NCBI RefSeq assembly: GCF_014695375.1
Contig: NZ_JACJOG010000053.1
Coordinates: forward strand, 62,001-126,000
Reading direction: 5' to 3'
Source of the DNA: Coleofasciculus sp. FACHB-T130
GTDB taxonomy: Bacteria > Cyanobacteriota > Cyanobacteriia > Cyanobacteriales > FACHB-T130
DNA: 64,000 nt
The notes under the pieces are model-generated. The model was not told the DNA's origin. It made no database searches and saw only the letters and a list, made by a program, of their open reading frames with translations. Positions within the stretch are counted from its first letter, which is position 1, and each line of letters opens with the position of its first letter. Positions 6,457 to 59,954 of the stretch are shown here, one piece after another. The translations under genes were made by a program, and so were the position numbers.

Positions 6457-7350
6457 ATGCAGGCAACCCCAGCAGCCTCTACCGTCCCCATTCCCGGCAC
6501 TTATTGGCAATGGCGGGGGCAATCCATCTATTATGTACGGGCAGGACAACCGCAACCCGAACGCCCGCCCCTATTATTGATTCATGGCTTTGGTGCCTCT
6601 ACAGACCACTGGCGCAAGAATATTACTGAACTGAGTCAGGATTTTGAAGTTTGGGCGATCGATCTGCTGGGCTTTGGTCGTTCAGCCAAGCCGGAGTGGG
6701 AGTATGGTGGCAACTTGTGGCGAGACCAACTGTATGATTTCATCACTAACGTGATTCGTCAGCCAGTTGTGTTAGCAGGAAACTCTCTAGGCGGCTATTG
6801 CGGGCTTTGCGTGGCAGCCCAACGTCCATCAGCCGCTGTTGGATTAGTATTGCTCAATAGTGCTGGCCCGTTTACCAATCTTAAGGTGCCGACTCAACCG
6901 AACCCCATCCAAAAAGTGATGGGTGAAGTCGTTCAGTCACTTTTTCGCCAACCCTGGGCTAGTTTTCTGTTGTTCCAGTATGCGCGACAACGTTCAGTCA
7001 TTCGGAATACACTCCAGAAAGTTTATCTCGACCAGAGTGCGATCACCGATCGGTTGGTGGAAGAAATCTATCGCCCCTCTTGCGATCCCGGTGCTGCTCA
7101 AGTGTTTGCTTCTGTCTTCAGAACGCCTCAAGGCGAAAAAGTTGACGTTTTATTAAAGCAGATGCGCTGCCCGCTGTTGCTGTTGTGGGGAGAAGCAGAT
7201 CCCTGGATGAATGCAAGAGATAGAGCGGAGCAATTTCGCCAATACTATCCTCAACTGACAGAGCATTTTTTACAAGCAGGTCACTGTCCCCATGATGAGG
7301 TACCAGAACAAGTAAATGCTCTGATGCGCTCGTGGGTATTAAGCAATTAA
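6457..7350 (+). CDS. Alpha/beta-fold hydrolase
   Basis: A 297-residue soluble hydrolase. LLIHGFGAS supplies the oxyanion-hole HG (about 41-48). GNSLGGY carries the nucleophile Ser110. LLLWGEADPW supplies the likely acid Asp, and QAGHCPHDE the catalytic His near the C-terminus. The layout matches the haloalkane-dehalogenase/epoxide-hydrolase-like branch common in cyanobacteria and plastids; a halide-binding pair is not evident and the substrate is unknown. The gene is convergent with the CHAT gene, and a long symmetrical hairpin separates them. Confidence 0.9.
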   Translation: MQATPAASTVPIPGTYWQWRGQSIYYVRAGQPQPERPPLLLIHGFGASTDHWRKNITELSQDFEVWAIDLLGFGRSAKPEWEYGGNLWRDQLYDFITNVIRQPVVLAGNSLGGYCGLCVAAQRPSAAVGLVLLNSAGPFTNLKVPTQPNPIQKVMGEVVQSLFRQPWASFLLFQYARQRSVIRNTLQKVYLDQSAITDRLVEEIYRPSCDPGAAQVFASVFRTPQGEKVDVLLKQMRCPLLLLWGEADPWMNARDRAEQFRQYYPQLTEHFLQAGHCPHDEVPEQVNALMRSWVLSN

Positions 7351-7410: not shown

Positions 7411-10400
7411 TTACCAAGGATTGCCGATCATCGTAAATGCTGCCCAATAATAGGGATGAGAGAGTTTCTTCTCTCCTAACCCTGCCAACTCCGGAGGTAG
7501 CGAGATATCCTCTCTGGAAGTATGCATTTTGTTTCCCTCAATACTTACTTCTCCATTAATCATCGATATCTGTGCCTGCCGTAGTGCCTCCGCTTTGATG
7601 GGGGCTTTTTTCAATTGTGAATAGAAACTGGTCATCAGTCCCAGCGTCCCTTCATCGCTGACGTACCACAGACTTCCCATTGCCGATTTCACCCCTGCTT
7701 GCACAGCCAATCCAGCAAAGCCCATCTCTGCCTGTTCATTGCCTAACGCTGTGCGACAGGCGCTCAGCACTAATAACTCTACAGGTGGATCGTTCCAGCC
7801 CATTTGCTTTAGCTGATTCAATCGCAGTTTCGTGTCCCATAGCTGAATGTAGGATTGGCTAGGAGGGCCTAATTCAAATTCGGCATGAGTTGCTAGATGG
7901 ACAATCCCAAAGGGCTGCGAGTAGCGCTGGGACTTCAGATTCTTGAGGGTGAAGGCGTCGTTAAGGAAGGCTTTGCCTTTCCACAGCTGGGGCGTAATCA
8001 TTGACAACTCCAGGGGCACTGATGGTAACGCGCTTTGTTCGGGAAACTTCTCCGCTCCCATTGCCAGAACTTGGGAATTTTTAATGTCTTTGAAGAGAGT
8101 ATCCGTCAAACTAAGACTGGGCATCAACCCCGTACTGTATTTCTCCACCAGAAACTTTTGACCATCGTGGAGAGCGGCAATCGGGATGGAGCGTAACCCA
8201 CTGTCTGCGAGGAAGACCATATTCTGGATACCCCGCGCTTGTAAATCGGCTTCAATGGGTGCAATCATCCACTTATAAAGTTTTTGGGCTGGAGCCAGGT
8301 AAGCCTTCTGTCTTCGCGGGTTAATCACTTCGGCACGGAATTGATCGGCAACCTTGATTACTTGCGATCGCGTTGTCCCCGGAACCCGTTTGCGAATTGG
8401 TACACCATCAGAAGTCACTACCAATATTTCCAACTGGTCGCTATTGTTACGCCCTGCCCGATTGACCTTACTTAGGGAACTAGATTGCTGCACATTTTCT
8501 GGTTGATTTAACGGCTGTAGTGACTTAGTTCCATTGAAAGCCGTCGTATCTAGTAGGCTCGGATCGAGTGCAATCGTCTGGGGTACAAAAGTTACATAGA
8601 TGAGTGCCGGTTTCACCCCAGTCGCTTTCTCAATTTTTTGCAAAATATTACGAGCCTGCACCAGTGTTGTCGTCCGAGAATCAACGGGTTGACCCAAATA
8701 TTCCTCAAATTCACGGGTGAAGGATTCTTCCAGAACTGCAACAGATTCACTTGCATCAGTTTGTGAAGATGATTCCGCATCCACCTTTCGTGATGATGAA
8801 TTTTCCTTGCCGGAAGAGGTGGAAACCGGATCGTTTCCTGAGCCGGATAAGTTATCTCCCTGACTTGTTCCGTCATCTCCCTTGCTTGCTTGATCGTTGC
8901 TAGGGCTGCCGGAGCCTGTGTTTTTGCCCGTGCCACCAGTGCCGGTACTACCGCCCCCCGTGCCACCGGAGGAACCTGTGTTTTTGCTTGTGCTTCCACC
9001 CGTGCCGCCGGAGGAGCCTGTGTTTTTGCCCGTGCCACCGGAGGAGCCTGTGTTTTTGCCTGTGCTTCCACCCGTGCCGCCGGAGGAGCCTGTGCCGCTG
9101 CCACCTGTATTGCCACCCGTACCCCCGGAGGAGCCGGTACCGCTGCCACCTGTATTGCCGCCCGGATCTATGCCGCCGGTGCCACTGCCACCTGTATTGC
9201 CACCCGGATCTATGCCGCCGGTACTGCCACCTGTATTGCCACCCGGATCTATGCCGCCGGTACTGCCACCTGTATTGCCACCCGGATCTATGCCGCCGGT
9301 GCCGCTGCCACCTGTATTGCCACCCGTACCCCCGGAGGAGCCGGTGCCACTGCCACCTGTATTGCCACCCGGATCTATGCCGCCGGTACTGCCACCTGTA
9401 TTGCTACCCGGATCTATGCCGCCGGTGCCGCTGCCACCTGTATTGCCACCCGGATCTATGCCGCCGGTACTGCCACCTGTGTTGCCCCCCGGATCAATGC
9501 CGCCAGTACCCCCAGGACTAGGGGTAGGAGTGGGGAGAGGAGTAGGGCTGGGAGTGGGAGTAGGATTGGGATTTGGGGTAATATCTGTACCTACCTTGGT
9601 CGGTTGGGCAGATCCCGTAGATCCCGTGTATTTTATGGGGGCTGCTGTACCCGTTGTTAAAGTAATCGTCCCATCAGTGCCTTGACCGAACTTTCCATTA
9701 CCAGAAGCGCCCGCCGTTATCTTGTTATACGTAATGCTACCCTTCGCAGTTAACGTTACATTCCCACCATCGTTGGGGCCGCCTGTAGCTTTCGTTATGA
9801 TGTTGCCAGTTTTAATGTTTCCGTCTTGTGCTGTCAACGTTACACTACCAGCACCGCCCATGTTGCCCTTAACAGAAGTGTTAATCTCTCCAACAGTTAC
9901 ATTTGCACCTGTAATGGTTAACGCTCCCCCGGAAGTTGTGATGGATTGCGATTGATCCATTGAAAAAGACCCGGCACCATTTTTATCCGCGTCGGCAGTA
10001 AAGGTAATCGAGCCACCAGAAGAAAAGTCCAGCGACACACCGTTGTCGATGGTAATATCATTCGTTGCTTGTAGTAAGACATTACCAGTCTGATTTTCGA
10101 GTAAGCTCTTGGAGATAGTGAAGTCTACCTCATCCCCTCCATCAGCCGATAAAATTTGCCCCGCTAAGTCTCCTGTAGGAGTATCGGCATTGAGTTGATC
10201 GTCGTTCGTACCACCTGTATTGACTATCTTGATATTCTTTGGATCGAGCAGAATGGTGCCGTCTACCCCGTTAGGCGCACCTACATTCACCTCTCCTTTA
10301 AATGCTAAGTTTTCCTTGCCGGATACTTCGACAAAGCCACCATTACCTTGATTAGTGCCGCCACTAGCACCGATTTTGCCATAGAAGCCGGTTACTTTGT

Positions 10401-11625
10401 CTGCCCAGACGATGACATGACCGCCATCGCCGTTGAGCAAACTGTCAGCATTGATCGTAGAGTCGCTGCTGATGTAAGTATGAGAGGCAGTGGGAATGGT
10501 GCCTTTCCCCTGAAAATCCCCTCCAATCAGGACGGTGCCGCCACCATTGGTGCCTGAAGCGTTAACATTGCCACTAACCAGCCCGACTTTGTCGCCCAAG
10601 ACCTGCGCCGTGCCGCCAGTCTGACCTGAAACGTTGAGACTGCCAGAGGCGATCGCAGTGCCTGGATCTGTGGGAATGCTAACCCCAGATCCCGTTAACA
10701 CTACCTGACCATTGCTGTTGACTGTTAGCCCAGTGGCACTCCCGGCACCGCCTCCCGTTAACAGTTCTGGGATGGAAGCAACTGGCAATGTCCAATTTTC
10801 CGGCTGGCTACCGGCTGCTGCTATGGGTTGAATTTCTAAGCTTAGTAGATTCCCTGGTTGACTCAGGCGTACTATGTTCTCACCAGGTACGGCTGTTAAG
10901 GTGATATTACCCCCAGGAGCTGTCAGGGTTCCGGTATTTACTACGGTACCACCCAGTAAAGCAATATCCTTTGCCGCGCCTACACTCAGTTGCCCTGCGT
11001 TGATAATTGCACCGGGTTGAGCGTTGGTGAAGGCAAAGGCGTTGGGTTCTCCCCCCAGGGCAGCATAATTATTGTTACCAGATGCATTGAACCAGTTGTT
11101 GCCAAAACCAATTCCTGTAGCAGTGGTGGCGGTGAAGCTTCCGTTTACATTTAAGCTGGCGTTGGCACCCAATACAATGCCAGATGGATTAATTAGAAAT
11201 AGATTGGAATTGCCATTCGTAACTTGGAGCAGACCGTTAATAATAGAGGGGTTTCCGCCAGTGACGCGACCCAATATATTTTTAATATTTTGGTTCGACA
11301 GAAAATTCGCAACTTGGTTGGCGTTTAGCCCAAACTCGGAGAAACTGTGAAAAAGGTTTGCCCCATTACTGGAGGTTTTTCCCCCAGTAATGTCGAAACT
11401 GTTGCCATTGGTATTGACAATGGTGTTCGTGGTGTTGGTGGGGTCCTGATCTGGCACAATTTGTGCCTGCGCGATCGCCCAATCGACGCCTCCTGGAGCG
11501 ATCGCAGGCAACATCCAAAAGGCCAAGGGTAAAACTAAATATTTTATCCTTTTTCCTTTTTCTTTTTTCACTTTAATATAGCTTGCCTTCAGCAATAGAC
11601 TGATTTCACATACAGCGACTTTCAT
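7411..11625 (-). CDS. Exported TPS (haemagglutinin N-domain) protein with C-terminal CHAT protease domain
   Basis: A 1404-residue protein with a start ATG at 11625. Order of parts: a basic then hydrophobic export signal (about 25-53); a filamentous-haemagglutinin/TPS secretion domain (about 55-190, with [19 protein letters not shown]); beta-helix-like sequence to about 660; a Pro-Thr stretch; a Gly-rich repeat (about 700-915); a charged Ser-rich spacer; and a CHAT domain (about 1050-1404). CHAT is a caspase-like cysteine peptidase fold. Both catalytic residues are present: His1247 in HLATHAEF and Cys1290 in LSACRTALG. The TPS domain implies export through a TpsB/Omp85 partner, which is not in this window. 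A protease on the surface or in the matrix is the inference; the substrate is unknown. HIP1 sites and ordinary flanks suggest a resident gene. Confidence 0.9.
8895..9520 (-). repeat. Gly-rich tandem repeat inside the CHAT gene
   Basis: On the minus strand the code gives eight GGIDPG(G/S)NTGGS units mixed with [13 protein letters not shown] and SSGGTGKNT variants, at about residues 700-915. Units are 11-14 codons long and nearly identical in DNA, so unit number probably varies by slippage or recombination. The repeat joins the secretion/beta-helix part to the CHAT domain, probably as a flexible tether. Its base pattern also opens long meaningless frames on the opposite strand. Confidence 0.9.
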
Positions 11626-12632: not shown

Positions 12633-13068
12633 TCACTGCGCTTCGCCAATCAGGGTAAATGCCGCCCAGTCTCATGGGTTCGGGTATGTTTTCAGAGTTT
12701 TTCACATGGCACTTCGCAGTGCAGATGCTCGGTCTGGATTTCCCTGGAGATTATTATAAAACTTCGTCATTAGGAAAGAAGTGGGGGCAGCAGGGATCGC
12801 CCATAATGACACTTGAACACTAGGAACTCTAGCGGAAATAAAAACCCGAGACAGCCTGATGACGCCATCGCCTGTAATCCGACCTCTTCCCGTGTCAAAA
12901 GCACTCAAAACCACCAATTCGGCTTTTAAAGACGAACTGTGCGGTGTGTCGAAGGCAGTTCGCTCCGATCGTGCGTACAAATCCAGTATTTCACCCGCCG
13001 TCAGCAAACCACTATCTTTCCCGTCTGATGCAAGGGCGAGCCTCCCTTCGGGAGGAGCTAGCGCTATC
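12633..13068 (-). pseudogene. Decayed CHAT-domain gene (C-terminal remnant)
   Basis: Minus-strand sequence from about 13068 to 12702 reads as the end of a TPR/CHAT-type protein: SGLLTAGEILDL, then AELVVLSAFDTGRGRITGDG, SLWAIPAAPTSFLMTKFY and NPDRASALRSAM. The catalytic motif normally reads SACDTG; here codon 12897-12899 is TTT, giving Phe for Cys. An insertion of about 15 residues lies before it. After an in-frame TGA at 12702 the family ending resumes in another frame as DWAAFTLIGEAQ, preceded by a TGA where Arg is expected, and stops at 12633. Upstream TPR-like sequence was not found, and a stop occurs near 13060. This is a clear remnant, not an active peptidase. Confidence 0.82.
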
Positions 13069-56553: not shown

Positions 56554-57294
56554 TCAACTAGAGGCGATCGCTTCTGTTTCTAAAATCGGCTGGGAAAGAA
56601 CAGAGGCTTGCATTCCCATCGTTGCAACTAATTCTTTGGGTGCATTCACCCGACTGGGCGATTCTAAATATTCACCCGTAACGGCTGGCGAAACTACCTT
56701 CATCTGGTGGCGAATGCTGTAGTATCGATGAGTCTGAGCAATGATATCTCGCTCCTGCATCGAGTCATTGGCAATTTTCTTACGCAGTTTAATAATTGCA
56801 TCAATCACGGCTTCTGGTCTGGGAGGACACCCCGGCAGATAAACATCGACCGGAATCAACTTATCGACTCCCCGCACCGCTGTTGGTGAGTCTGCGCTAA
56901 ACATACCGCCGGTAATCGTGCAAGCACCCATTGCAATGACGTACTTGGGTTCTGGCATTTGTTCGTAGAGGCGCACCAATGTTGGAGCCATTTTCATAGT
57001 GATGGTGCCTGCGGTAATCATCAAGTCAGCTTGACGAGGACTTGCCCAAGGTTTCAAGCCAAATCTGTCAAAATCAAAACGGGCTGCAAACATCCCCATC
57101 ATTTCAATAAAACAGCAGGCAGTCCCAAACATCATAGGCCACAAGCTGGAGAGGCGTGCCCAGTTGTAAAAATCGTCTACGGTTGTCAAAACGACATTTT
57201 CCGAAAGACTATGGGTAATCTCAGGTCGTTCAATGGGGTTGAGAATCTGAGTTTTTTGATTGTCAGGTTCAATAATGGTTGCTGTCGGATTCAT
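56554..57294 (-). CDS. ndhK: NAD(P)H-quinone oxidoreductase subunit K
   Basis: A 246-residue NDH-1 subunit that carries iron-sulfur cluster N2 in the peripheral arm on the thylakoid membrane. The four cluster cysteines are present: Cys60-Cys61 (GTACCF), Cys125 (MGACTITGG) and Cys156 (YLPGCPPRP). AGGAGG lies five bases before the ATG. In cyanobacteria ndhK normally sits in ndhC-ndhK-ndhJ; here neither neighbour is present, and instead an FAD monooxygenase follows. A deleted second copy lies upstream. This may therefore be an extra NdhK rather than the housekeeping one. Confidence 0.94.
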
Positions 57295-57328
57295 TTTGTC
57301 CTCCTTTAGCTCAATCTATAAACGCTTG

Positions 57329-57691
57329 CATCGAGAATGTTGTGGGTCTCGATCCGCATAGAAGTTGGAATTGCGTTCATCTTGAACACCTCGTGAAATC
57401 AGTTCAACTAGAGGCGATCGCTTCTGTTTCTCATATCATCTGGGGAAGAACAGAGGCTTACATTCCTATCGTTACAACTAATTCTTTGCGTGCATTCACC
57501 CGACTGGGCGATTCTAAATATTCTCCAGTCAAAATCAAAACGGGCTGCGAACGTCCCTTCCATGAAGGCAAAAGCACTCCTGAACAGGATAGACCATAGA
57601 CTGAACAGGGTTGCCCGGTTGTAGAGGTCATCTACAGTTTTTGAGGCAATATTTTTAGAAAGACTACGAGTAATTTTAAATTTCTTTATTG
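57329..57691 (-). pseudogene. Internally deleted tandem copy of ndhK
   Basis: Bases 57329-57528 copy 56455-56680: the last 40 residues of ndhK, the spacer, and the first codons of the FAD monooxygenase gene. Bases 57529-57691 copy the ndhK N-terminus ([26 protein letters not shown]). The central part of about 130 codons is missing at the joint. The C-terminal frame ([13 protein letters not shown]) contains two stops and is out of frame with the N-terminal part; the start codon is lost. This matches tandem duplication of a unit holding ndhK and the next gene's 5' end, followed by decay. Confidence 0.85.
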
Positions 57692-57797
57692 ATTAATGAA
57701 TTCGTTATTCTTTAATAGCAACCTTTTCATAACTAATGAGCAAGCGCATTTTTATTAATTAACAACGAGTAAATTGCAACTCCTCAAGAAAATAGTA

Positions 57798-59954
57798 TCA
57801 GAAGAATTGAAATCGATTGCGACCCTGTTCTTTGGCACGGTACATAGCAGAGTCTGCATTTTTAATTAAGGTATCTACAGTGTTCCCATTAAAAGGATAG
57901 ATGCTAATACCAATACTGACAGTTACGAAGATAGTTTGTCCGTTGAGAATGAAAGGCTGAGATAGGGTTGATAAAGTCTTTTCTGCAACTCTGGCAGCAT
58001 CTTGAACTCTACTAATTGCAGGTAAAATTACTGTAAATTCGTCACCACCCAAACGCGAGACGGTATCGCTGCCGCGCAAGCAACCCGTGAGTCGTTGAGC
58101 GACCATCCGTAGCAGCAGGTCGCCCATGTCATGTCCGAGGGTGTCATTAACCTGCTTAAAGCCATCCAGATCGAGAAACAAAAGAGCAAACAACTGGTTA
58201 TTACTACTACCCCATTCTAGAGCTTGAACCATGCGTTCGTAGAATTGTTTACGGTTAGGTAGACCAGTCAGTGGATCGTGATAAGCCAGATGACGCATCT
58301 GGTCTTCTGAAAGCTTTAATTCGGCGTTAGAACGGATTAACTCTTCTGCCGTTCGTTTCAACTCTTCTTCTATCCGCTTGCGTTCAGTGATATCTCGGAT
58401 GACACCAACTAAAAAAATATTACCGGCAGCATCTTTGTGGAGCGATCGCTTGGTAGCGATTAGGTGAGTTGTACCAAAGATATCCGTAAATTCTTCTTCA
58501 TTTTCTTGCTCCTCACCACCTTGTAACACTTGCTCATTGTTCTGCCAAAAAACTTCAGCCTCATGTTTAGGAAAAAACTCATAAGCAGACTTTTTAAGTA
58601 AAGTTTCTAGGGGATAACCAATAAATTTGCAATATGCCTGATTTAAAATAATCCAACGATGTTCTTTGTCTTTGACAAAAATTGGATCGGGGATGGTGTT
58701 AATCACCTTCTGCAAAAACTCTTTAGAGCGTTTTAACTCCTCCTCCAAATAAGCCAGATGACTCACGATCGCGATCGCAGACCCTACAAGCCCCAGGAGT
58801 GGAGGAATCAGCGGTATCCACCAACCGAAGAGAAAGGCCAGGTAGGAAATACCGAGCAATCCAGCCCCAGCCGCTAAAATACTGAGACCAGACTTTCTAA
58901 GGAGACGCAATCGCCAACTGATATAGGCACCTATCCACGACCAAACCAAAATCCACAAGGCTTCTACGAGATCGGGCCAGACGTTGATTAAGGAACGTCC
59001 GTCCAGAGCAGCGCTCAGGAACGCACTGGTAAAATTGGCTTGGAGTTCGACACCTGAAATCCTTTGTGCGCCTTGGTTGAGACGGCTACTGTAAGGGGTG
59101 TAGAAAAAATCCTGGAGGCTGGGTGCGGTTGAACCAATCAAAACAATGCGATCGCGCAGAAGGCTGGGTTGTACGCGGTTTGCCAGAACATCTACCATTG
59201 AAACAATCTGAAAGCTATTGGGTTGCTTAAAGTTAGCTAATATTTGATAACCCTTGGAATCAGCCGTTACATAAGCCCCATCATTTGATTTAAAAACTGG
59301 GAAGACACCCCTCCCTAGCTGTAGGTAATCAGGGTTCACGCGCGACGGACTCGGAGTAATTCCCTTTTCCTTCAAATAAATCAACGCCAACTGGAGCGCA
59401 AAACTTGTATGTAGTTTGTTATCTACGTGTGCATATAAAAAGCTACGGCGCACCTTACCATCAGCATCAACGACCACATTATTAAAACCAACTTGCTGGA
59501 GACGGTTTAGTACTGGGGATGGTGGAACACCCAAGCTTTTTTCAGTCTTCAATAGTTCAATTCCGATCAAGTTAGGGATAGTTTGACCAGCTTTGATGAA
59601 TTCTGCATGACCGGGTGGTACTGGGAGATCGCGATAAATATCCAGACCAATCGCTCGTGGCTCAAAGGCATTTAATTTTTGTACTAAAGTTGCCATGACT
59701 GCGTCAGGAATGGGCCATTGTCCTACGTGCTTTAAGTCTTTTTCGTTAATTTCGACAATTACCACGCGCTCGTCTATTGGTTCTGAAGGACGCAAACGAA
59801 ACAGCTGGTCTAAGGCTGCCAACTCCCAGGATTGAAACAGTCCAGCCATCCGCAGGATAATGATGCAGCTTGCAACAGCCGAGGAAGCGATCGGCACTCG
59901 GCGCTCTTGTTGAAGCCGTTGCTTCAATCTTGCCCATATACTTTTTTTTAGCAT
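57798..59954 (-). CDS. CHASE2-PAS-GGDEF diguanylate cyclase
   Basis: A 718-residue membrane protein. The N-terminal anchor helix precedes a CHASE2 extracytoplasmic sensor (about 45-310), then three transmembrane helices (about 320-395), a PAS domain (about 415-530) and a GGDEF domain (about 545-715). GGDEF is intact, with an RxxD inhibitory site (RGSD) five residues before it, so it should make c-di-GMP and be product-inhibited. No EAL domain. The start is ATG at 59954; TTG at 59978 would add eight residues. The sensed signal is unknown. Confidence 0.92.
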   Translation of the reverse strand: MLKKSIWARLKQRLQQERRVPIASSAVASCIIILRMAGLFQSWELAALDQLFRLRPSEPIDERVVIVEINEKDLKHVGQWPIPDAVMATLVQKLNAFEPRAIGLDIYRDLPVPPGHAEFIKAGQTIPNLIGIELLKTEKSLGVPPSPVLNRLQQVGFNNVVVDADGKVRRSFLYAHVDNKLHTSFALQLALIYLKEKGITPSPSRVNPDYLQLGRGVFPVFKSNDGAYVTADSKGYQILANFKQPNSFQIVSMVDVLANRVQPSLLRDRIVLIGSTAPSLQDFFYTPYSSRLNQGAQRISGVELQANFTSAFLSAALDGRSLINVWPDLVEALWILVWSWIGAYISWRLRLLRKSGLSILAAGAGLLGISYLAFLFGWWIPLIPPLLGLVGSAIAIVSHLAYLEEELKRSKEFLQKVINTIPDPIFVKDKEHRWIILNQAYCKFIGYPLETLLKKSAYEFFPKHEAEVFWQNNEQVLQGGEEQENEEEFTDIFGTTHLIATKRSLHKDAAGNIFLVGVIRDITERKRIEEELKRTAEELIRSNAELKLSEDQMRHLAYHDPLTGLPNRKQFYERMVQALEWGSSNNQLFALLFLDLDGFKQVNDTLGHDMGDLLLRMVAQRLTGCLRGSDTVSRLGGDEFTVILPAISRVQDAARVAEKTLSTLSQPFILNGQTIFVTVSIGISIYPFNGNTVDTLIKNADSAMYRAKEQGRNRFQFF

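Follow-up and report, generated by a model that had tools for sequence, protein, structure and literature searches.

The window analysed here, a stretch of 64,000 nucleotides from the cyanobacterium Coleofasciculus sp. FACHB-T130 (NCBI RefSeq assembly GCF_014695375.1, contig NZ_JACJOG010000053.1, positions 62,001 to 126,000 of the forward strand), contains a gene for a 1404-residue protein in which the N-terminal domain of two-partner secretion (TPS) exoproteins is joined to a C-terminal, caspase-like CHAT peptidase. Our analysis suggests that the product is probably a TpsA exoprotein whose CHAT domain would serve as a processing peptidase of surface proteins exported by two-partner secretion, and which would leave the cell through a separate lineage of TpsB pores, here termed TpsB-II. 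Both domains score above the Pfam cut-offs and far above chance level (TPS, E 9.3e-42; CHAT, E 2.5e-71), the catalytic His-Cys dyad is kept in all 67 fusions compared and in all 27 other open reading frames (ORFs) with this CHAT, and all 25 sampled genomes that encode such a fusion also encode a TpsB-II. As judged from sequence, there is good support for export and for a protease that is conserved and probably active.

The TpsB-II pore lineage

A family search for CHAT, TPS and ShlB genes in the host genome returned 34 CHAT matches, 12 TPS matches and two ShlB/TpsB genes above the cut-off (a third lay below it), and both of these ShlB genes have POTRA domains. A partner pore, the lack of which the preliminary description of the gene had named as telling against export, is present in the genome: one of the two genes belongs to TpsB-II and lies on contig C56 at 57023-59005 (C, G and L numbers are our handles for contigs, genomes and loci), tail to tail with a paralogous TPS-CHAT gene (C56:59073-62366). 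TpsB-II forms a clade in a tree of 19 rows (100/100) as well as in a tree of 40 rows (Shimodaira-Hasegawa-like approximate likelihood ratio test, 100), the latter including 23 of the 29 TpsB-II hits and leaving out L133 and L147 of the former. Six TpsB proteins that had been chosen because they adjoin fusions all fall into TpsB-II, and the TpsB proteins of the split operons described below lie elsewhere in the tree. Likewise, a TpsB-II profile separated 29 hits of at least 612 bits in 44 genomes of the same class from a remainder of at most 551 bits.

For comparison across these 44 genomes, a fusion was defined as a hit of profile A1, built from six CHATs of the host fusion clade, in one open frame with a TPS domain, the threshold being at least 350 bits in 14 genomes and E ≤1e-75, that is at least 311 bits, in the other 30. 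Fusion and TpsB-II were found together in 25 genomes, TpsB-II without a fusion in one, neither in 18 and a fusion without TpsB-II in none (Fisher P 1.8e-11, uncorrected for relatedness); the corresponding numbers for TpsB proteins outside TpsB-II were 20 genomes with both, 5 with the fusion only, 8 with the TpsB only and 11 with neither (P 0.013). The single genome with TpsB-II only (G067) holds TPS and CHAT out of frame, apparently broken at a proline-rich linker of EP repeats. A similar trend was seen within genera, two of which (g10 and g6) have fusion and TpsB-II present or absent together, and in genomes with few candidates: in G047, G080 and G084 the single TPS match is a fusion and the single ShlB match a TpsB-II, and in G076 two TPS matches, both fusions, accompany one TpsB-II. 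Of the 29 TpsB-II genes, 8 are located within 5 kb of a fusion. With TpsB-II in 25 of 25 fusion genomes, the earlier proposal of export by two-partner secretion appears well supported at the sequence level; its further suggestion, that export sets this CHAT apart, was not supported within this genome, as shown below.

Domain layout and predicted structure

The preliminary description placed a TPS N-domain, a beta-helix-like stalk, a Gly-rich tether and a CHAT domain in one protein; its coordinates for the ORF proved exact, and the layout (Table 1) agrees with Pfam and with the structure models. The same holds for the intact dyad, since His1247 and Cys1290 are found at these positions and align with the dyad of other CHATs. 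The NCBIfam match of the protein is adhes_NPXG (TIGR01901), and a Pfam scan up to E 1 gave no domain besides CHAT and TPS except a HEPN match below the threshold.

Table 1. Position of the fusion gene within the window, with the segments and catalytic codons assigned to it
Feature	Position	Strand	Basis
TPS-CHAT fusion gene	7411..11625	-	single ORF, ATG start, 1404 aa; PF05860 and PF12770 above cut-off
Signal-like N-terminal region, residues 1-53, long; basic, then hydrophobic, then AIAQAQ	11467..11625	-	hydropathy 2.16 and Ala-x-Ala (simple script)
TPS domain, residues 54-266, NPSGI motif at residue 146	10828..11466	-	PF05860, TIGR01901, fold matches
Beta-helix-like stalk (predicted), residues 267-683	9577..10827	-	AlphaFold2 model; EtpA by sequence profile
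Tether, residues 684-960, Pro-rich then Gly/Thr/Ser-rich	8746..9576	-	composition and tandem repeats
Conserved helix/strand segment before the Pfam CHAT boundary, residues 961-1110	8296..8745	-	model of residues 931-1404
CHAT (clan CD) peptidase domain, residues 1111-1402	7420..8295	-	PF12770; structure model
His1247 codon (HLATHAEF)	7885..7887	-	alignment; kept in 67/67 fusions
Cys1290 codon (SACRTALG), sole Cys of the mature protein	7756..7758	-	alignment; kept in 67/67 fusions

The AlphaFold2 model of residues 46-700, built from 22 sequences (the window protein and 21 of 58 fusions), consists mostly of beta strands (mean predicted local distance difference test score, pLDDT, 79.8; predicted template modelling score, pTM, 0.83). 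It matches the exoproteins EtpA, HMW1, HxuA, FHA and Proteus mirabilis hemolysin A with modest TM-scores on the query (0.20-0.43), and the stalk also matches EtpA by sequence profile. The model of residues 931-1404, built from 31 sequences (the window protein and 30 of 59 usable fusions), has a mean pLDDT of 86.4 and a pTM of 0.85; as far as a model can tell, a mis-folded CHAT is not indicated. Its best solved match is the TPR-CHAT protein of Craspase (7y84_C, Z 28.5 over 331 residues, root mean square deviation 3.1), followed by separase (5fby, Z 25.1 over 314 residues); both alignments start near model residue 21. Further matches were the gingipains RgpB (4ief, Z 18.7) and Kgp (4rbm, Z 18.6) and DdvA (Z 18.7), a transmembrane anti-sigma factor. 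CHATs were thus recovered by fold comparison, whereas a profile search with the CHAT sequence gave no PDB chain better than E 0.39.

The tether had been regarded earlier as typical of the design, a view that the wider family does not bear out: a hydrophobic-poor run of at least 40 residues was found in only 17 of the 67 fusions, among which two rows (L078 and L097) contain runs of X. In the window protein the longest such run comprises 297 residues with 35% Gly, and a long Gly-rich tether of 456 residues is also present in the likely ortholog from Trichocoleus (L059), with which the protein shares the MKV-VC start. By sequence, a Gly tether of such length is a local feature of these two copies. 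In the window it is encoded by tandem repeats, the listed periods of which range from 12 to 207 and are without exception divisible by 3, so that a change in copy number would preserve the frame. As a separate observation, the break in G067 (L165, G067:C1:153000-161000) raises the possibility that tether repeats are weak points of genes or assemblies.

Constraint and compartment

The 67 fusions comprise seven from the host genome and 60 from 54 other loci. In comparison with the likely ortholog L059, the ratio of nonsynonymous to synonymous substitution (dN/dS) is 0.14 in CHAT and 0.13 in TPS, and it amounts to 0.23 in the stalk and 0.34 in the segment preceding CHAT. The window protein contains only two cysteines, one at residue 6 in the signal-like region and the catalytic Cys1290, and the catalytic residue is likewise the sole mature cysteine in 42 of the 67 fusions; three mature cysteines occur in 19, five in 3 and two in 3. 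The number of extra cysteines is thus even in 22 of the 25 fusions that have any (binomial P 7.8e-5, uncorrected for kinship), and 22 of the 25 extra pairs have a spacing of 4-10 residues. Such even, closely spaced pairs are the pattern that disulphides formed in an oxidising compartment would leave. Among the 65 of 67 fusions counted in the signal test, 58 reach a hydropathy of 1.8 and 61 have an Ala-x-Ala-like site.

CHAT proteins of the host genome

TPS-CHAT fusions, with both domains in one open frame, make up 7 of the 12 TPS proteins of the host, and all seven keep both catalytic residues. The fusion is therefore not a one-off, and it is present in 25 of the 44 same-class genomes. In a tree of 33 of the 34 host CHAT domains, from which a decayed remnant at 12642-13055 of the window was excluded, six fusions and a CHAT protein with a signal but no TPS domain (C9:70901) form a clade (100/99), and five of these paralogs have CHAT domains 69-74% identical to that of the window protein. 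The nearest relatives of the clade, with moderate support (90/67), are the TPR-CHATs C56:118929, which adjoins a TpsA gene, and C55:18069, which adjoins TpsA-TpsA-TpsB. Since the seventh fusion (C6:112638) falls among the TPR-CHATs, the tree requires at least two changes. This gene (C6:108138-113504) and those at L160, L161 and L164 are likely a second kind of fusion, in which a TPS stalk is joined to a TPR-CHAT-type domain; they score 59-79 bits against the CHAT profile of the clade, and only the host copy was placed in the tree.

A signal-like segment near the start (hydropathy threshold 1.6 over 13 residues) was found in 26 of the 34 host CHAT ORFs; revision by eye removed C38, which has 23 cysteines, and kept one borderline case, again giving 26. 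These signal-bearing proteins contain 1.86 cysteines per 1000 residues, compared with 10.7 in the seven others (remnant excluded). Most CHAT proteins of this genome therefore look exported as far as their sequences tell, and the contrast drawn earlier between the window protein and intracellular CHATs does not hold within this genome. Two further host CHATs deviate in the active site: the signal-bearing protein at C49:40526-41389 has Tyr and Val in place of the catalytic pair and is a probable pseudo-peptidase, and the CHAT at C57:91932 has Thr in place of His with the Cys kept.

Near the fusion gene, the next gene downstream (6457-7350) lies on the opposite strand in convergent orientation, encodes an alpha/beta hydrolase and is separated from it by 60 bases. 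Upstream, the remnant at 12642-13055 (minus strand) corresponds to the C-terminal half of a gene of the TPR-CHAT type and has decayed: it contains two stop codons, has Phe instead of the catalytic Cys and is 63% identical to the host CHAT C57:75855.

Distribution of fused and split forms

Profile A1 was surveyed in 14 genomes chosen for spread from the 44 of the same class, and each of the 14 gave matches (best E ≤4.3e-62 in each). The hits fall into two groups, with none between 227 and 352 bits. Among the 32 hits of at least 350 bits, 25 were fused to TPS; at 140-230 bits, 28 of 65 CHATs had a TPS domain, and another 4 a TpsB gene, at a distance of at most 8 kb, where about 3% would be near by chance (hand arithmetic); below 140 bits, among the matches listed, one of 53 was fused and one of 53 was near TPS or TpsB. 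Counting all tiers, fusions occur in 11 of the 14 genomes and account for 26 of 112 TPS rows. By family, fusions are present in 14 of 19 sampled. Outside the class, A1 had no match at E 1e-20 in any of 54 genomes of the phylum, an empty answer that by itself shows nothing. A scan of GTDB contigs, the only search that sampled other phyla, gave cyanobacterial titles for all of the best 80 loci. The best match on a plasmid (48% identity) was a CHAT gene of 450 residues, too short to contain a TPS domain as well.

In 54 of these best 80 loci the CHAT ORF also holds the TPS domain, 15 are cut by the locus end and 11 have no TPS in the same ORF. In six of these 11 a TPS ORF lies directly upstream; the break coincides with runs of N, that is assembly gaps, in L067, L093, L109 and L129; the two other loci, L079 and L089, show no N there and have the two domains out of frame. 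Phase variation was considered as a cause of the separate frames and rejected, as four of the six loci break at assembly gaps. The CHAT domain ends two residues before the end of the protein in 79 of the 80 loci and three residues before it in the other.

Twenty of the stretches examined were chosen for their position near hits. In the split form, genes for a TpsA, for a TpsB outside TpsB-II and for a TPR-CHAT protein with a signal adjoin one another. Four of 15 split loci (host C55, G005, G008 and G027) have in addition a small protein, DUF1822, CHASE2 with an N-terminal CHAT, and DUF928 beside TpsA-TpsB-TPR-CHAT; the small protein has no Pfam match and may be sigma-like, in keeping with the sigma factors reported with DUF1822 and EACC2-caspase proteins (see below). 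The regulatory set of DUF1822, CHASE2-CHAT and DUF928 is absent beside the window gene. The combined cluster was noted at L022/L023 (host C55:2784-20855), L130, L131 and L135, and in the host three small proteins resembling RTX (C55:8445-11081) belong to it as well. TpsA and TpsB share a single open frame in three genomes from two genera (L131:6767-11119, 1451 residues; L133:6895-11322, 1476 residues; G057:C1, 1473 residues), which would amount to two-partner secretion by one protein.

Proposed mechanism and alternative explanations

The proposed route would begin with a putative Sec signal, which on the evidence of the sequence would take the protein into the periplasm. There the TPS domain would engage an Omp85-type TpsB-II pore. 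In this host, as linkage of the genes and their co-occurrence suggest, the pore would be that of C56:57023-59005, shared by several TPS-CHAT proteins that are orphans. As established for two-partner secretion, the beta-helix would then be threaded out and fold into the stalk, whose fold is predicted here. The CHAT domain, joined to the stalk by the linker, would presumably fold outside the cytoplasm, which would mean at the cell surface or, in the event of a stalled translocation, in the periplasm. Finally, and speculatively, it might cut envelope or surface proteins, possibly including its own linker or neighbouring TpsA proteins. The role as a processing peptidase of TPS-exported proteins is assigned on account of the split sister form, in which TpsA and a different TpsB are accompanied by a signal-bearing TPR-CHAT. 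Since a signal-bearing CHAT without TPS (C9) and signal-bearing TPR-CHATs exist, and the periplasm is the compartment common to both formats, the sequences suggest that it can be the site of action. A broader, tentative possibility is an extracytoplasmic caspase-like system in cyanobacteria, with CHAT peptidases exported to the periplasm and the surface, either as TpsA-CHAT with TpsB-II or as signal-bearing TPR-CHAT in TpsA-TpsB operons, in some cases wired to CHASE2/DUF1822; signals from the envelope might lead such a system to remodel proteins of the surface.

Several observations weigh against the role proposed for the window protein. No TpsB gene adjoins this copy, as judged from the ShlB matches of the genome. 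TpsA proteins of the same TPS type without CHAT exist in the host (C59:215619-218273) and in another genome (G053:C33), where the gene is located beside a TpsB-II; TpsB-II may therefore fit this TPS class and not CHAT itself, and may serve the whole class with CHAT being one cargo. Seven of the 32 top-tier CHATs are unfused, so that passage of the outer membrane may be dispensable, as with C9:70901, and in one of the seven (G035:C159) an assembly gap separates CHAT from its TPS. With 1.2 cysteines per 1000 residues, C23, which has no signal, is no richer in Cys than the CHATs that look exported. Furthermore, the genomes are related and several contain more than one fusion, so that the counts are not independent; the 67 fusions were drawn from the best 80 loci, which favours intact genes; and signal peptides were scored by a hydropathy script alone. 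The main text of the exoproteome study of Anabaena PCC 7120 contains neither of the search terms 'CHAT' and 'hemagglutinin' (PMC4390845). As an observation on the TPS class as such, its members without CHAT (C59:215619-218273 and L158:1185-3770) end in a short tail with two cysteines, and one of them adjoins a TpsB-II.

Among the alternatives, self-cleavage, in which the exported CHAT would cut its own linker as substrate and free the stalk or itself in the manner of a maturation protease, would account for the extreme C-terminal position of CHAT in the best 80 loci, for the low-complexity linker in part of the family and for the resemblance to exported clan CD peptidases such as the gingipains, which process themselves. 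However, the linkers have no uniform sequence, many of them being short or escaping detection, and the sister TPR-CHATs are separate genes without a TPS tether, so that cleavage of the tether cannot be the common function; we consider this explanation unlikely. The exported CHAT could also be a binding module in an envelope-stress relay, with proteolysis playing a minor role, as the regulatory set beside some split loci and the match of the CHAT model to DdvA might imply; this appears decidedly improbable in view of the dyad retained throughout the fusions and of the lack of that set beside the window gene. Delivery of CHAT into neighbouring cells as a toxin, as in contact-dependent inhibition (CDI), would fit a TPS protein with a C-terminal enzyme and several paralogs per genome, but the C-terminal domain is conserved among the paralogs and not polymorphic, a pretoxin-VENN domain was not found in the Pfam scan, and the convergent hydrolase gene leaves no space for an immunity gene, which together make this role very improbable. 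That the gene is an accident, a chance TPS fusion with a degenerate or unexported product, is hardly credible given purifying selection at both the TPS and the CHAT end, the spread over families and at least two fusion events in the host tree, even though the decayed remnant upstream indicates that CHAT genes are gained and lost here.

Comparison with known systems

In bacteria, CHAT and caspase-like peptidases are treated for the most part as factors that act inside the cell in death, defence or development. While the domain combination itself is already readable from public domain libraries, our results indicate that a large branch of cyanobacterial CHATs has features of export and is found together with a single lineage of outer-membrane pores, and this may be read as a dedicated TpsA-CHAT/TpsB-II system, a form of two-partner secretion that has a CHAT peptidase as cargo and a TpsB lineage of its own. 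A testable pairing is thereby offered, usually of one TpsB-II with one to several TpsA-CHAT proteins, whose substrates are to be sought in the envelope. The pairing also opens an approach to the question why dozens of CHAT genes are retained in some cyanobacteria, and it cautions against taking all of these for cytoplasmic defence effectors. A search of the open-access literature found no paper naming the TPS-CHAT combination or a TpsA-CHAT/TpsB-II system, and no such protein is described in the portions available of PMC8406250, PMC10907252, PMC8195603, PMC4195282, PMC10811720, PMC9284123, PMC12785971 and PMC4390845.

HetF of Anabaena is, like the window protein, a cyanobacterial CHAT protein; it has CHAT at residues 1-555, one predicted transmembrane segment and TPR and is a divisome component, and TPS is unmentioned in the part of that paper at hand (PMC8406250). 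Likewise without mention of TPS in the available text, EACC2-caspase proteins have been reported with extracytoplasmic function (ECF) sigma factors and DUF1822, some with CHASE2 (eLife 2021, PMC8195603). A similar gene set (DUF1822 and CHASE2 with an N-terminal CHAT) occurs beside some split loci and not beside the window gene, the likeness being one of gene set alone. According to a study on phage resistance in Nostoc 7120, the resistant strain RD5 is mutated in a protein with a filamentous-hemagglutinin N-terminus, and strain RD2 has two mutations, one of them in the CHAT gene all2170 (PMC10811720). These mutations are a lead and not evidence for the window protein.

Similar to the TpsA exoproteins EtpA (8vbb/8cpk), HMW1 (2odl), HxuA (4i84) and FHA (1rwr), the window protein has a TPS domain, an NPxG motif, a predicted beta-helix stalk and a TpsB encoded in the genome. 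Unlike these type Vb proteins, it ends in a clan CD peptidase, has no adjacent TpsB gene and would be served by a separate TpsB lineage. CdiA is characterised by pretoxin-VENN, a variable toxin tip and an immunity gene directly downstream, none of which is found at this locus. The closest structural match, Csx29, the TPR-CHAT protein of Craspase, also has a His-Cys dyad, yet it is only 13% identical and acts inside the cell with an RNA-guided CRISPR effector, in contrast to the window protein, which has no TPR but carries TPS and begins with a signal-like region. Separase matches in structure as well, but it is eukaryotic and intracellular, with 14% identity. The gingipains RgpB and Kgp, in turn, are exported clan CD cysteine peptidases, as proposed here for the window protein; they share 11% identity with it and are exported by the type IX system.

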